The notes below the pieces were generated by a model. The model was given only the letters and a program-made list of their open reading frames with translations. It was not told where the DNA came from and did not search any database. The translations under genes were made by a program, and so were the position numbers. DNA of 64,000 nt from Altererythrobacter sp. TH136 (lineage in GTDB: Bacteria; Pseudomonadota; Alphaproteobacteria; Sphingomonadales; Sphingomonadaceae), in assembly GCF_007065885.1 (NCBI RefSeq), contig NZ_CP041409.1:248001-312000 (forward strand). The letters are read 5' to 3'. Positions 17,412 through 26,843 of the stretch are shown here, piece after piece; the first letter of the stretch is position 1, and each line of letters starts with the position of its first letter.

Positions 17412-17440
17412 TTGCGAATCGATCTGCCTTGGAACATACA
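17412..17440 (+). promoter_or_regulatory. Predicted imuA promoter under LexA control
   Basis: TTGCGA at 17412-17417 and CATACA at 17435-17440 are separated by 17 bp. The LexA box covers the -10 element, so LexA would block polymerase. The predicted start of transcription falls at or next to the ATG at 17449, implying a leaderless mRNA. Confidence 0.45.
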
Positions 17441-17446
17441 GGGAAC
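17432..17446 (+). promoter_or_regulatory. LexA (SOS) box before imuA
   Basis: GAAC at 17432-17435 and GAAC at 17443-17446 are separated by 7 bp. This is the complement of GTTC-N7-GTTC, the established alphaproteobacterial LexA site. It ends 2 bp before the ATG at 17449, exactly as in the second box at 20516. Confidence 0.85.
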
Positions 17447-17448
17447 AG

Positions 17449-23225: not shown

Positions 23226-23234
23226 GCCTGTGAG

Positions 23235-26200
23235 GTGCCCGAAAACGACCTTCAGGTTCCGCGCCGCCGGATCGAACTCGATCCCGGACTGATCGCGCGC
23301 CCGGCGTGGTCGCCGTTCGTCGAACTCGGCCTCGCCAGCTGCTTTTCCTTTTTAAGCGGCGCTTCGGACCCGGTCGATCTGGTGATCACCGCGCATGCCC
23401 TGGGCTACGACAGTATCGCCATCGCCGACGTCAATTCGATGGCCGGCGTGGTGCGCATCCATACCGAGGCGAAGAAGCTGCACCTGCGCCCGCTGATCGG
23501 ATGCCGGATCGAAACGGTCGAGGGTCTGGCCTTCCTCGCCTATCCCGTCGACCGCGCGGCCTATGGCCGATTGTGCCAGCTGATCTCCGCCGGACGGATG
23601 AGCACGCTTGATGGCGAGTGGCAGGACAAGGGGGCGTGCCACATCTCGCTCGCCATGCTGGCCGCGCATGCCGAAGGGGTGCAGCTGATCCTGCTGCCGC
23701 CGCGTGACCTGGGTCAGCAACTGACCATCGCGGTGCCCAGCAACGTCGTCGCGTTTCCCGGCCAGACCCGCGCGGAAGGCGAACAGATGGCGCTGACCGG
23801 CGCTTTCACCGACCTCCTGCCACATCTCCCCCGGCAACTGCCCACCCTGCGCCATCTGGCGGCGAGTTACCTTTATGGAGAGGACGACATCGCGCGGATC
23901 AACCGGCTCGATGTGCTGGCCCGGGATCACGGCCTTGCGCTGCTGGCGACGAACGATGTCCTCTATCACCTGCCGGAGCGGCGCCCGCTGCAGGATGTGA
24001 TGACCGCCATCCGGCACAAGACCACTGTCACCGATGCCGGCCTGCTGCTCAATTCAAACGCCGAGCGGCACCTGAAATCGCCGCGTGAGATGATCGCGCT
24101 GTTCGCCCGCTGGCCCCATGCGATCGAAGCGACGCGCGAGGTTGCGAACAAATGCCGGTTCAGCCTCGACCAGCTGCGATACGAATACCCTGAGCGCGCG
24201 TATCCGGACGGCCTGACTCCGCAGGCGTACCTCCGCCGCTTGACCTGGCAAGGGGCCAGGCGGCGCTATCCGGTCCGAATGCCCCCGAGGGTCAAGAAGA
24301 CGCTGAAACGTGAACTGCGGCTGATCGGACAGCTGCAGCTGGCGCCCTACTTCCTGACGATCAAGGAAATTGTCGACTTCGCGCACGGGGAGGGCATCCT
24401 GTGCCAGGGGCGCGGGTCGGCGGCCAATTCGGCGGTCTGTTATTGCCTTGGGATCACTGCGGTGGACCCGGCCAAGCACCAGCTTCTGTTCGAACGCTTC
24501 ATCACCAAGGAGCGCCGGGAGCCGCCCGACATCGACGTCGATTTCGAGCATGAGCGGCGGGAAGAAGTGATCCAGTGGATTTATCAGACGTATGGCCGGC
24601 AGCACGCGGGACTGTGCGCAACGGTCATCCACTATCGTCCGCGCATGGCGATCCGGGAAGTCGGCAAGGCGATGGGCCTGTCCGAAGATGTCACCTCGGC
24701 GCTCGCGCGTACGGTGTGGGGGGGGCATGGCCGCGAAATCAACGAAGAGCATGTCCGCAATGAAACCGGGCTCGACCTGAGCGATCCGCAGCTCACCCGC
24801 GTGCTCAAGCTCACCGAGCAGATGATCGGCATGCCGCGGCACCTCAGCCAGCACGTCGGCGGTTTCATCCTTACCGACAAGCTGCTCACCCAGACGGTGC
24901 CGATCGGGAACGGCGCGATGCCGGATCGCACGTTCATCGAATGGGACAAGGACGACATCGACGATCTGGGCATTTTCAAGATCGACGTGCTGGCATTGGG
25001 CATGCTGACCTGCATCCGCAAAACCCTGAAGATGCTGCAGGACCATCATGGTCAGGATTACGATCTGGCGACGATCCCGCAGGAGGAGCCGGCAGTCTAC
25101 GACATGCTGTGCACCGGCGATTCGCTGGGCGTGTTCCAGGTTGAGAGCCGCGCGCAGATGAACATGCTCCCGCGCCTGCAGCCGCGCGAATTCTATGATC
25201 TGGTGGTGCAGGTGGCCATCGTCCGGCCCGGGCCCATCCAGGGTGACATGGTGCACCCGTACCTGAAGGCGCGGCGCGAGTACCGGGCAGGGCGGCGGGA
25301 TTTCAACCTGCCATCGCCGGCGCCTGAATGCGGGCCGCCGGATGAGCTGTCGTCGATCCTCAAGCGCACTTTCGGGGTGCCGATCTTCCAGGAACAGGCG
25401 ATGAAGATCGCGCTCGACGCGGCCAAGTTCTCGCCGGCAGAGGCCGACCGGCTGCGCAAGGCGATGGCCACGTTCCGCAGCCGCGGGATGGTGCACGAGC
25501 ACCAGGACATGATGGTCGGGAACATGATCGCGCGCGGCTATGATCCCGAGTTCGCCCATCGCTGCTTCAACCAGATCAAAGGCTTTGGCGAATACGGTTT
25601 TCCCGAAAGCCATGCAGCCAGTTTCGCGCACCTGGTGTATGTCTCCAGCTGGCTTAAGTGCCACTACCCCGCCGCGTTCGCTGCCGCGCTGCTCAATTCG
25701 CAGCCGATGGGGTTCTACGCACCGTCGCAAATCGTGCGCGATGCGGAGGAGCACGGGGTCGCGGTGCTGCCGATCGATGTGAATCATTCGGACTGGGATT
25801 GCACGCTGGAGCCGGTTGACGAACCCAGGCACTCCCGGCCGCGCTTTCGCGCCGGGCAGGATCGGTGGCGGCACGACCGGGGCTGGGCGGTGCGGCTGGG
25901 CTTGCGGCAGATCGATGGGCTGCCGGAGTCCGTGGCTGCCAGGCTGGTTGCCGCACGGCAGGCGAACGGACGCTTTGGGGACGTGCGCGAAGTCCGCGAT
26001 CGGGGCCGGGTTCCGCCCGCGCATGTCGAACGGCTCGCCGCAGCCGATTGCTTCGGCTCTATCGAGCTGCCGCGCCGCCAGGCGCTATGGCAGGCGCGCA
26101 CGCTGGTGGGGGCGGAAGACCTGCCTCTGTTCGCCGCCATGCGCGAGCGCGAGGAAGGGGCTGAACGCAAGGACATCCTCCTACCCGAAATGGCGCTCGC

Positions 26201-26843
26201 CGAAGAAGTTGTGGCCGATTACCAGACTCACCGACTGAGCCTGAAGGCGCACCCCTTGAGCTTCCTGCGCCCTTCGCTGACCGAGCGCGGTTTCCACCGG
26301 GCGGACGACCTGCGGGGGCGCAAGTTCCGCTCGATGGTGCAGGTCGCGGGCGTGGTGCTGATCCGCCAGCGCCCCGGTAGTGCCAAGGGGGTGTGCTTCA
26401 TCACGCTGGAGGACGAAAGCGGAGTGATCAACCTCGTCATCTGGCCCGACATGATGGAAAAGTACCGCAAGGTCATCATGGGCGCGCGCCTGATGGAAGT
26501 GCGCGGCCGGGTCGAATACGATGAGGAGGTGATCCACGTCATCGCGCATCATCTGACCGACGCCACGCAGGATCTTCACCGCCTGTCGGATGACCTGATG
26601 CCCGTGACGATCGCGCGCGCCGATCACTGCAACAATCCGCTGCCCAGCCGGTGGGGACCCGGCGGGGTCCTGGTCGATGACGAGGGGCAGGAACAGTCGC
26701 CGGGCAAGGGTGTGCCATGGCAGCCGCCCGGGCCGGGCAATCGCGATTGCGGTTATCATGGACCGAGCGCCGGCGGCCATCCGCGCGACGTGCGGATCGT
26801 GCCCAGGCTGCTGCCGCTCCCACCCAGCCGCGACTTTCACTAA
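23235..26843 (+). CDS. dnaE2: Error-prone DNA polymerase III alpha subunit DnaE2 (ImuC)
   Basis: DnaE2 is the replicative-type polymerase that extends past lesions with ImuA and ImuB. The 1202-residue protein is somewhat longer than the usual 1050-1100. Visible parts are the N-terminal PHP domain (LGYDSIAIADVNSMAGVVRIH), the polymerase core with QGRGSAANSAVCYCLG and catalytic PDIDVDFEHERREE (about residues 427-440), the KGFGEYGFPESHAASFAHLVY helix-hairpin-helix lead, and a C-terminal OB fold (VQVAGVVLIRQRPGSAKGVCFITLEDESG). It ends in the family's HPRDVRIVP...SRDFH. The GTG at 23235 is the only sensible start after udgX. Confidence 0.95.
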   Translation: MPENDLQVPRRRIELDPGLIARPAWSPFVELGLASCFSFLSGASDPVDLVITAHALGYDSIAIADVNSMAGVVRIHTEAKKLHLRPLIGCRIETVEGLAFLAYPVDRAAYGRLCQLISAGRMSTLDGEWQDKGACHISLAMLAAHAEGVQLILLPPRDLGQQLTIAVPSNVVAFPGQTRAEGEQMALTGAFTDLLPHLPRQLPTLRHLAASYLYGEDDIARINRLDVLARDHGLALLATNDVLYHLPERRPLQDVMTAIRHKTTVTDAGLLLNSNAERHLKSPREMIALFARWPHAIEATREVANKCRFSLDQLRYEYPERAYPDGLTPQAYLRRLTWQGARRRYPVRMPPRVKKTLKRELRLIGQLQLAPYFLTIKEIVDFAHGEGILCQGRGSAANSAVCYCLGITAVDPAKHQLLFERFITKERREPPDIDVDFEHERREEVIQWIYQTYGRQHAGLCATVIHYRPRMAIREVGKAMGLSEDVTSALARTVWGGHGREINEEHVRNETGLDLSDPQLTRVLKLTEQMIGMPRHLSQHVGGFILTDKLLTQTVPIGNGAMPDRTFIEWDKDDIDDLGIFKIDVLALGMLTCIRKTLKMLQDHHGQDYDLATIPQEEPAVYDMLCTGDSLGVFQVESRAQMNMLPRLQPREFYDLVVQVAIVRPGPIQGDMVHPYLKARREYRAGRRDFNLPSPAPECGPPDELSSILKRTFGVPIFQEQAMKIALDAAKFSPAEADRLRKAMATFRSRGMVHEHQDMMVGNMIARGYDPEFAHRCFNQIKGFGEYGFPESHAASFAHLVYVSSWLKCHYPAAFAAALLNSQPMGFYAPSQIVRDAEEHGVAVLPIDVNHSDWDCTLEPVDEPRHSRPRFRAGQDRWRHDRGWAVRLGLRQIDGLPESVAARLVAARQANGRFGDVREVRDRGRVPPAHVERLAAADCFGSIELPRRQALWQARTLVGAEDLPLFAAMREREEGAERKDILLPEMALAEEVVADYQTHRLSLKAHPLSFLRPSLTERGFHRADDLRGRKFRSMVQVAGVVLIRQRPGSAKGVCFITLEDESGVINLVIWPDMMEKYRKVIMGARLMEVRGRVEYDEEVIHVIAHHLTDATQDLHRLSDDLMPVTIARADHCNNPLPSRWGPGGVLVDDEGQEQSPGKGVPWQPPGPGNRDCGYHGPSAGGHPRDVRIVPRLLPLPPSRDFH

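Follow-up and report, generated by a model that had tools for sequence, protein, structure and literature searches.

The window analysed here, a 64-kb stretch of the Altererythrobacter sp. TH136 genome (contig NZ_CP041409.1, positions 248,001 to 312,000), contains at positions 17,412 to 26,843 the SOS mutasome genes imuA, imuB and dnaE2, together with genes for a radical S-adenosylmethionine (rSAM) protein and for a DUF4130 protein fused to UdgX, a member of the uracil-DNA glycosylase (UDG) family. As judged by comparison with relatives, the SOS mutasome locus is present here in a genuine variant form that is conserved. In the reading that we favour, at a probability of roughly 0.55, two separable SOS modules are interleaved here, the second lying with its own operator between imuB and dnaE2, and both would be induced together upon DNA damage, the products of the second acting with DnaE2.

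LexA boxes

Direct-repeat LexA boxes were found at the starts of both predicted units, imuA-imuB and rSAM/DUF4130-UdgX/dnaE2 (Table 1). The alphaproteobacterial LexA motif is given as GTTCN7GTTC/GAACN7GAAC in the sections of PMC8565304 used here. Two features expected of an alphaproteobacterial LexA regulon are present, namely a direct-repeat box at the promoter or start and a LexA protein encoded in the genome (TIGR00498, 168.8 bits; cut-off, 110.95), which is a single contig of 2.6 Mb. The bare 15-mer was discarded as proof because it is unspecific: GAACN7GAAC occurs three times in the window (1.44 expected), a count reached by 20 of 100 shuffles, and at 79 sites genome-wide compared with 67 for the reversed pattern, and being this common it therefore proves nothing alone. 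The narrower form GAACATAN4GAAC accounts for 4 of the 79 sites, located at the starts of imuA, the rSAM gene, a PA0069-family rSAM gene and rmuC. Three sites begin with GAACATT, one of them upstream of radA, and lexA is preceded by a site of looser form. The PA0069-family gene encodes a second rSAM protein (G000:C1 about 494314; L206), and its LexA box overlaps the likely start codon.

Within the interval from -200 to +30 relative to the rSAM start, an exact box is present in 77 of 80 named loci, which are the best 80 of 590 confirmed rSAM matches and are thus biased to close relatives; those without it are from Niveispirillum (L171), a Rhodospirillales metagenome-assembled genome (L187) and Xanthomonas (L202). 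Between -60 and +20, the box was found in 75 of the 80 loci, the reversed pattern in one, and the box in 13 of 3,875 random windows taken from the same loci. Similarly, 50 of the 55 loci L031–L085 (our own locus included) carry a box at the rSAM gene. On the basis of this recurrence, LexA control of the rSAM gene appears to be widespread in the Alphaproteobacteria sampled.

Table 1. Genes and LexA boxes of the locus (positions in the window)
Feature	Position	Strand	Basis and remarks
LexA box 1	17432..17446	+	GAACATACAGGGAAC; 2 nucleotides (nt) upstream of the likely imuA ATG; GAACATAN4GAAC subset
imuA	17449..18240	+	Open reading frame (ORF) open from 17356; likely ATG at 17449
imuB, Y-family polymerase-like	18125..19738	+	ORF, Pfam, relatives
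DUF72 gene, between the two LexA units	19727..20452	-	ORF, Pfam
LexA box 2	20516..20530	+	GAACATATATGGAAC; predicted operator of the second unit, at the rSAM start
rSAM gene	20533..21777	+	TIGR03916, weak C-terminal HhH; alternative ATG at 20524, inside LexA box 2
DUF4130 (TIGR03915) fused to UdgX (TIGR03914)	21774..23225	+	Family models
dnaE2, error-prone polymerase III alpha	23235..26843	+	GTG start, family model

dnaE2 as the probable third gene of the second LexA unit

The original prediction assigned dnaE2 to the second LexA unit, and the comparison of relatives argues for this assignment on three grounds: short gaps between udgX and dnaE2, the lack of a box between them, and retention of the operator after losses of rSAM-udgX. 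The ORF coordinates contain both the 4-nt overlap between the rSAM and DUF4130-UdgX genes and the 9-nt gap that follows. Among 30 interleaved loci (one contig present twice, as L096 and L138; start codons set by BLAST position), 26 have no more than 9 nt between udgX and dnaE2, and the remaining four have 104–293 nt. The interval that begins 150 nt ahead of the udgX stop codon and runs up to the start of dnaE2 contains no exact box in any of the 30. The three genes would thus be co-transcribed.

Two genomes without an rSAM match, represented by loci L117 and L118, retain the second LexA box and its leader ahead of dnaE2, whose reading frame is open. In L117, approximately 100 nt of the rSAM start remain, with scores of 52–70 against six relatives and shuffle maxima of 33–41. 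The leader of L118 is weaker (scores of 22–48; shuffle maxima of 24–27), and two of its six comparisons fail to beat the shuffles. In a dnaE2 tree constructed by a quick method, from which matches below 600 bits or 2,800 nt (e.g. the partial L131) and one identical row were omitted, L117 and L118 stand apart within the interleaved group, so that two events are needed; the two losses of rSAM-udgX were apparently independent. Since dnaE2 kept the operator after these losses, there is good evidence, of an evolutionary and not an experimental kind, that dnaE2 is driven from an operator of the box 2 type.

Gene order in relatives

The search for the same gene order in other genomes, which had been proposed as a check, was positive. 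In an order sample of 147 genomes, 43 contain the rSAM gene and 86 contain DnaE2 over the cut-off; in 18 of the 43 rSAM genomes, which represent nine genera, a single gene separates the rSAM gene from dnaE2 in a tandem arrangement (adjacency in this sample and in the phylum sample below was read by eye from coordinates). The closest of the 80 named rSAM loci are from Sphingomonadales such as Qipengyuania, Erythrobacter and Novosphingobium. All 17 relatives that were fetched contain rSAM, DUF4130, UDG and dnaE2 in this order. Upstream of these genes, 16 of the relatives have imuA and imuB; the contig of the seventeenth begins too late to show imuAB. In the comparison loci L106–L125, imuA-imuB-dnaE2 is contiguous in 17 of 20, of which 16 are preceded by an exact box, and in L112 imuAB is inverted next to dnaE2.

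The two modules are also linked in other arrangements. In the alphaproteobacterial family f14, rSAM-DUF4130-UdgX is divergent from imuA-imuB-dnaE2 over a single shared box in four of five rSAM genomes, the modules being unlinked in the fifth (G235), and Henriciella pelagia contains a divergent pair over two boxes. In a phylum sample of 299 genomes, 9 of the 53 genomes with the rSAM gene have it linked to dnaE2 at a distance of no more than 10 kb, the arrangement being tandem in five and divergent in four. These divergent pairs support a link between the two modules.

In two other f14 genomes (G357 and G421), which have no rSAM match, DUF4130 and dnaE2 lie on opposite strands approximately 3 kb apart, a layout suggestive of a divergent locus that has lost its rSAM gene. 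The rSAM gene is also present in 158 plasmid records; no annotated imuAB or dnaE2 was found in the three of these 158 neighbourhoods that were read, for which the gene table is incomplete. Ten phage records (H41–H50), two of which are 240-kb Acinetobacter phage records, encode rSAM relatives at 48–56% identity.

Do the modules form one system?

The original prediction regarded the joined modules as a single repair-and-bypass system. The sharing of the second LexA unit by dnaE2 and the linkage of the modules elsewhere agree with this view, but the modules are separable and their presence is uncorrelated within families. Across the phylum sample, dnaE2 is over the cut-off in 45 of 53 rSAM genomes and in 69 of 246 others (Fisher test, 1.4e-14). 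Within the class the association is weaker (34 of 36 rSAM genomes compared with 37 of 50 others; P = 0.012), and within families no correlation remains (P = 0.35, by a permutation restricted, within the 299 genomes, to the class plus another seven families in which an rSAM genome occurs). Thus, the predicted co-occurrence holds across the phylum and not within families, and it was dropped as proof of a single system: the signal fades from class to family and is read as mostly phylogeny.

Several further observations weigh, together with the within-family result, against the two modules acting as one. One locus (L103, genome G134) has the box and rSAM-UdgX with no imuAB there, and no DnaE2 over the cut-off was found in its genome. 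In L104 and L105, rSAM-UdgX with a box is present while a divergent imuAB-dnaE2 lies elsewhere in the genome (L106 and L108), and L127 and L130 carry rSAM-UdgX with a box and no mutasome within 8 kb. Conversely, the 69 phylum-sample genomes mentioned above have dnaE2 without rSAM. No adjacent dnaE2 was seen in 25 of the 43 rSAM genomes of the order sample, among which the contig of G002 is too short to tell. In the dnaE2 tree, three loci with a contiguous imuB-dnaE2 and no rSAM (L116, L122 and L123) fall inside the interleaved group, and the tree needs five changes, which counters a simple history with one gain. Finally, the idea that UdgX is the only uracil glycosylase was abandoned, as the genome contains five PF03167 matches including UdgX, and all 18 genomes searched, our own included, have at least one.

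An obligate single system composed of both modules is thus not supported, and their functional unity is plausible but unproven. The main competing explanation is one of regulatory convenience, in which dnaE2 borrows the SOS operator of an unrelated module and the proteins are induced together while dealing with different problems. The separability of the modules in both directions, the missing within-family correlation and the fact that dnaE2 manages without rSAM-udgX in L117 and L118 all favour it; however, divergent neighbours in f14 and Henriciella would rarely arise by chance, and the tandem order is repeated over nine genera. We regard this explanation as a serious contender with somewhat less than even odds, and retain interleaved modules whose products act together as the preferred reading.

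The radical-SAM protein

The rSAM protein matches TIGR03916 (rSAM_link_UDG) at 580.7 bits (cut-off, 343.5), its sole NCBIfam match at E values up to 0.001. The structure-linked alignments used 48 (rSAM) and 52 (DUF4130-UdgX) of the available loci. The CxxxCxxC cysteines (Cys 69, 73 and 76) are invariant in all 48 rSAM sequences, as are Cys 23, 48 and 57, from which one might guess at a second iron-sulphur cluster. The predicted model has a predicted local distance difference test score (pLDDT) of 84.4 and a predicted template modelling score (pTM) of 0.82, with a poor loop at residues 24–45. The best 50 of 85 solved folds matched at E values up to 0.001 are general rSAM enzymes, e.g. MgmA, biotin synthase and HydE, and general rSAM folds are among the matches listed from a viral fold library. 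The HhH DNA-binding tail of the original prediction is retained as a weak match, which lies below the Pfam cut-off (22 compared with 27 bits); its similarity to ComEA-related and RuvA structures is also weak (E values of 0.018 and above).

No reaction of the rSAM-DUF4130 pair was found in the literature examined. One proposal is that the protein resembles spore photoproduct lyase (SplB/SPL) and directly reverses thymine lesions caused by ultraviolet light, making the unit a kit against sunlight damage. The rSAM partners of DUF4130 are termed SplB-like in the sections of PMC3765255 used here, and the weak HhH tail points to DNA as a substrate. However, no spore lyase was matched in NCBIfam at E values up to 0.001 or named among the best 50 of the 85 folds, a separate PA0069-family rSAM protein with its own box is encoded in the genome, and the three additional invariant cysteines hint at other chemistry. 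We consider this proposal unlikely.

The DUF4130-UdgX protein

Both halves of the fusion protein are well above the NCBIfam cut-offs (TIGR03915, 223.9 bits, cut-off 112.25; TIGR03914, 296 bits, cut-off 189.95). The UdgX signature is present, including motif A (GEQPGDQED) and a KRRLH loop in which His381 is aligned with the catalytic histidine of Mycobacterium smegmatis UdgX, and this histidine is retained in all 47 UDG-bearing relatives of the alignment (A3). The predicted model (pLDDT, 91.8; pTM, 0.72) has UdgX entries as its top 30 fold matches, and the best 50 rows all match the glycosylase domain. In three relatives (L196, L198 and L200), the cysteines aligned to Cys293 and Cys296 are lost, whereas GEQPG and the KRRxH histidine are kept.

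The pairing of UdgX with the rSAM protein, taken as known in the original prediction, is seen in part of the genomes: a UDG domain over the cut-off adjoins the rSAM gene in 39 of the 53 rSAM genomes of the phylum sample, whereas DUF4130 lies on the same strand within 6 kb of it in all 53. Moreover, 5 of the 52 proteins in the A3 alignment consist of DUF4130 alone. These data therefore place the core at rSAM-DUF4130, with UdgX optional, and UdgX and DnaE2 look like add-ons to it. DUF4130 without rSAM was found in three phylum-sample genomes, and UdgX over the cut-off without rSAM in 12. In one genome without rSAM, a UdgX domain is immediately preceded by what is left of DUF4130, a short piece containing a stop codon (G216:C1:5487547-5487696).

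It could also be imagined that the rSAM protein undoes the UdgX-DNA crosslink, so that the unit would be a make-and-break pair for capped abasic sites. Consistent with this are the 39 genomes with adjacent genes and the description of the crosslink as irreversible, with its resolution open, in the sections of PMC10359453 used here. Yet 14 of the 53 rSAM-DUF4130 pairs have no adjacent UdgX over the cut-off (in one of these genomes, G335, a UdgX piece is on another contig), and the proteins consisting of DUF4130 alone and the 12 genomes with UdgX and no rSAM likewise speak against such a pair, which appears very improbable.

Other genes and features of the locus

The names imuA and imuB rest on gene order, overlap and homology to relatives. 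The ImuA homologues of the interleaved relatives share 53–65% identity, and the match of ImuA to NF033429 is weak (25.3 bits; NCBIfam cut-off, 150). ImuB passes the Pfam models IMS and DUF6504 and, narrowly, IMS_C, which are general Y-family models; NCBIfam and Pfam profile searches gave no match to an ImuB-specific model. The error-prone polymerase matches NF004225 at 1,356.6 bits (cut-off, 939).

The DUF72 gene, which the original prediction does not mention, is encoded on the opposite strand to LexA box 2, with 64 nt between its start and the box. It was rejected as a member of the system, since no DUF72 homologue above 45 bits was found in the 40 loci of relatives searched. A pyridoxamine-phosphate-oxidase-like gene (16875-17357, minus strand) is divergent from the imuA box and may share this operator; of 17 interleaved relatives, 14 have it next to the locus, and it is also found beside the mutasome-free rSAM-UdgX loci (L103–L105, L127 and L130). 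The label 'island' used in the original prediction receives no support from base composition, as the G+C fraction is 0.63–0.69 at the locus and 0.61–0.69 across the window.

Comparison with known systems

Like the ImuA-ImuB-DnaE2 mutasome of Caulobacter, mycobacteria and pseudomonads, the present locus encodes all three proteins and has a LexA box before imuA. Unlike there, imuA, imuB and dnaE2 do not form one operon: DUF72, rSAM and DUF4130-UdgX intervene, and dnaE2, parted from imuAB, is the third gene behind rSAM and DUF4130-UdgX. We take COG4277 to be the family of the present rSAM/HhH protein. A LexA-controlled COG1573-COG4277 operon, i.e. a UDG with its rSAM partner, is predicted in Bacteroidetes and was earlier reported for Verrucomicrobia and Alphaproteobacteria, according to the sections of PMC8565304 used here; it is a two-gene operon there, and dnaE2 appears in another cassette, alongside imuA-imuB. 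DUF4130 is tied to rSAM and UDG proteins in an SOS network in PMC3765255, the consulted part of which describes no rSAM-udgX-dnaE2 unit.

The present UdgX shares 40% identity, the GEQPG motif, the KRRxH loop and the fold with M. smegmatis UdgX (PDB 6ail and others), but is fused to DUF4130, is encoded beside rSAM and dnaE2, and is known here from sequence and model. Crosslinking by UdgX is described in PMC10359453, and four UDG-family genes are reported for Caulobacter in PMC1839093 (both in the sections used). A survey that, like this work, sorts DnaE2 systems by their partners names ImuA, ImuB, PolY, ImuB-C and RecA in the sections used (PMC12926913), and the words 'radical' and 'glycosylase' do not occur in its main text. 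Both words are likewise absent from the available parts of PMC6511836 and PMC8102061, and none of six context terms is present in PMC10776899. Thus, the UDG-rSAM pair has already been described as SOS-controlled, whereas its union with dnaE2, the rSAM-udgX-dnaE2 unit, was not found in the passages of the open literature examined.

Proposed mechanism and implications

In the interleaved arrangement, module 1 would be the imuA-imuB-dnaE2 mutasome operon and module 2 the rSAM-DUF4130 pair, here with fused UdgX, bringing its own LexA operator. In Sphingomonadales of the Erythrobacter and Novosphingobium type, module 2 lies, operator included, between imuB and dnaE2, which makes dnaE2 its third gene. 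Upon damage, activated RecA would promote cleavage of LexA and both units would be derepressed. ImuA and ImuB would join DnaE2 on DNA that is stalled or gapped. During this burst of induction, UdgX may remove uracil, e.g. from deaminated cytosine, and stay covalently bound via His381, shielding the abasic site, and rSAM-DUF4130, held on DNA by the HhH tail, might treat another damaged pyrimidine by radical chemistry, which is a guess. DnaE2 would fill or bypass the remaining damage.

A more speculative extension, which we consider improbable, is a built-in base-substitution pathway switched on by damage. Uracils remaining after damage would be converted by UdgX into abasic sites capped with protein, beyond the reach of ordinary excision; DnaE2, translated from the shared mRNA, would copy across these sites or fill them, and rSAM-DUF4130 would make or remove the modified pyrimidine on which the process draws. 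If this were true, SOS mutation spectra would carry a cytosine signature dependent on UdgX and rSAM. In the sections of PMC7925527 used here, base editors combining UdgX and polymerases are described; C-to-G editing is also mentioned there as being impaired by UdgX, which counts against such a pathway.

According to the consulted part of PMC10359453, little is known of what UdgX does physiologically. The unit described here sets UdgX and rSAM-DUF4130 in one natural context, SOS mutagenesis with DnaE2, that is open to genetics, and the relatives lacking rSAM-udgX, lacking the mutasome, or possessing both offer ready-made comparisons. The locus also illustrates how an SOS operator may travel with one module and capture a neighbouring polymerase gene.

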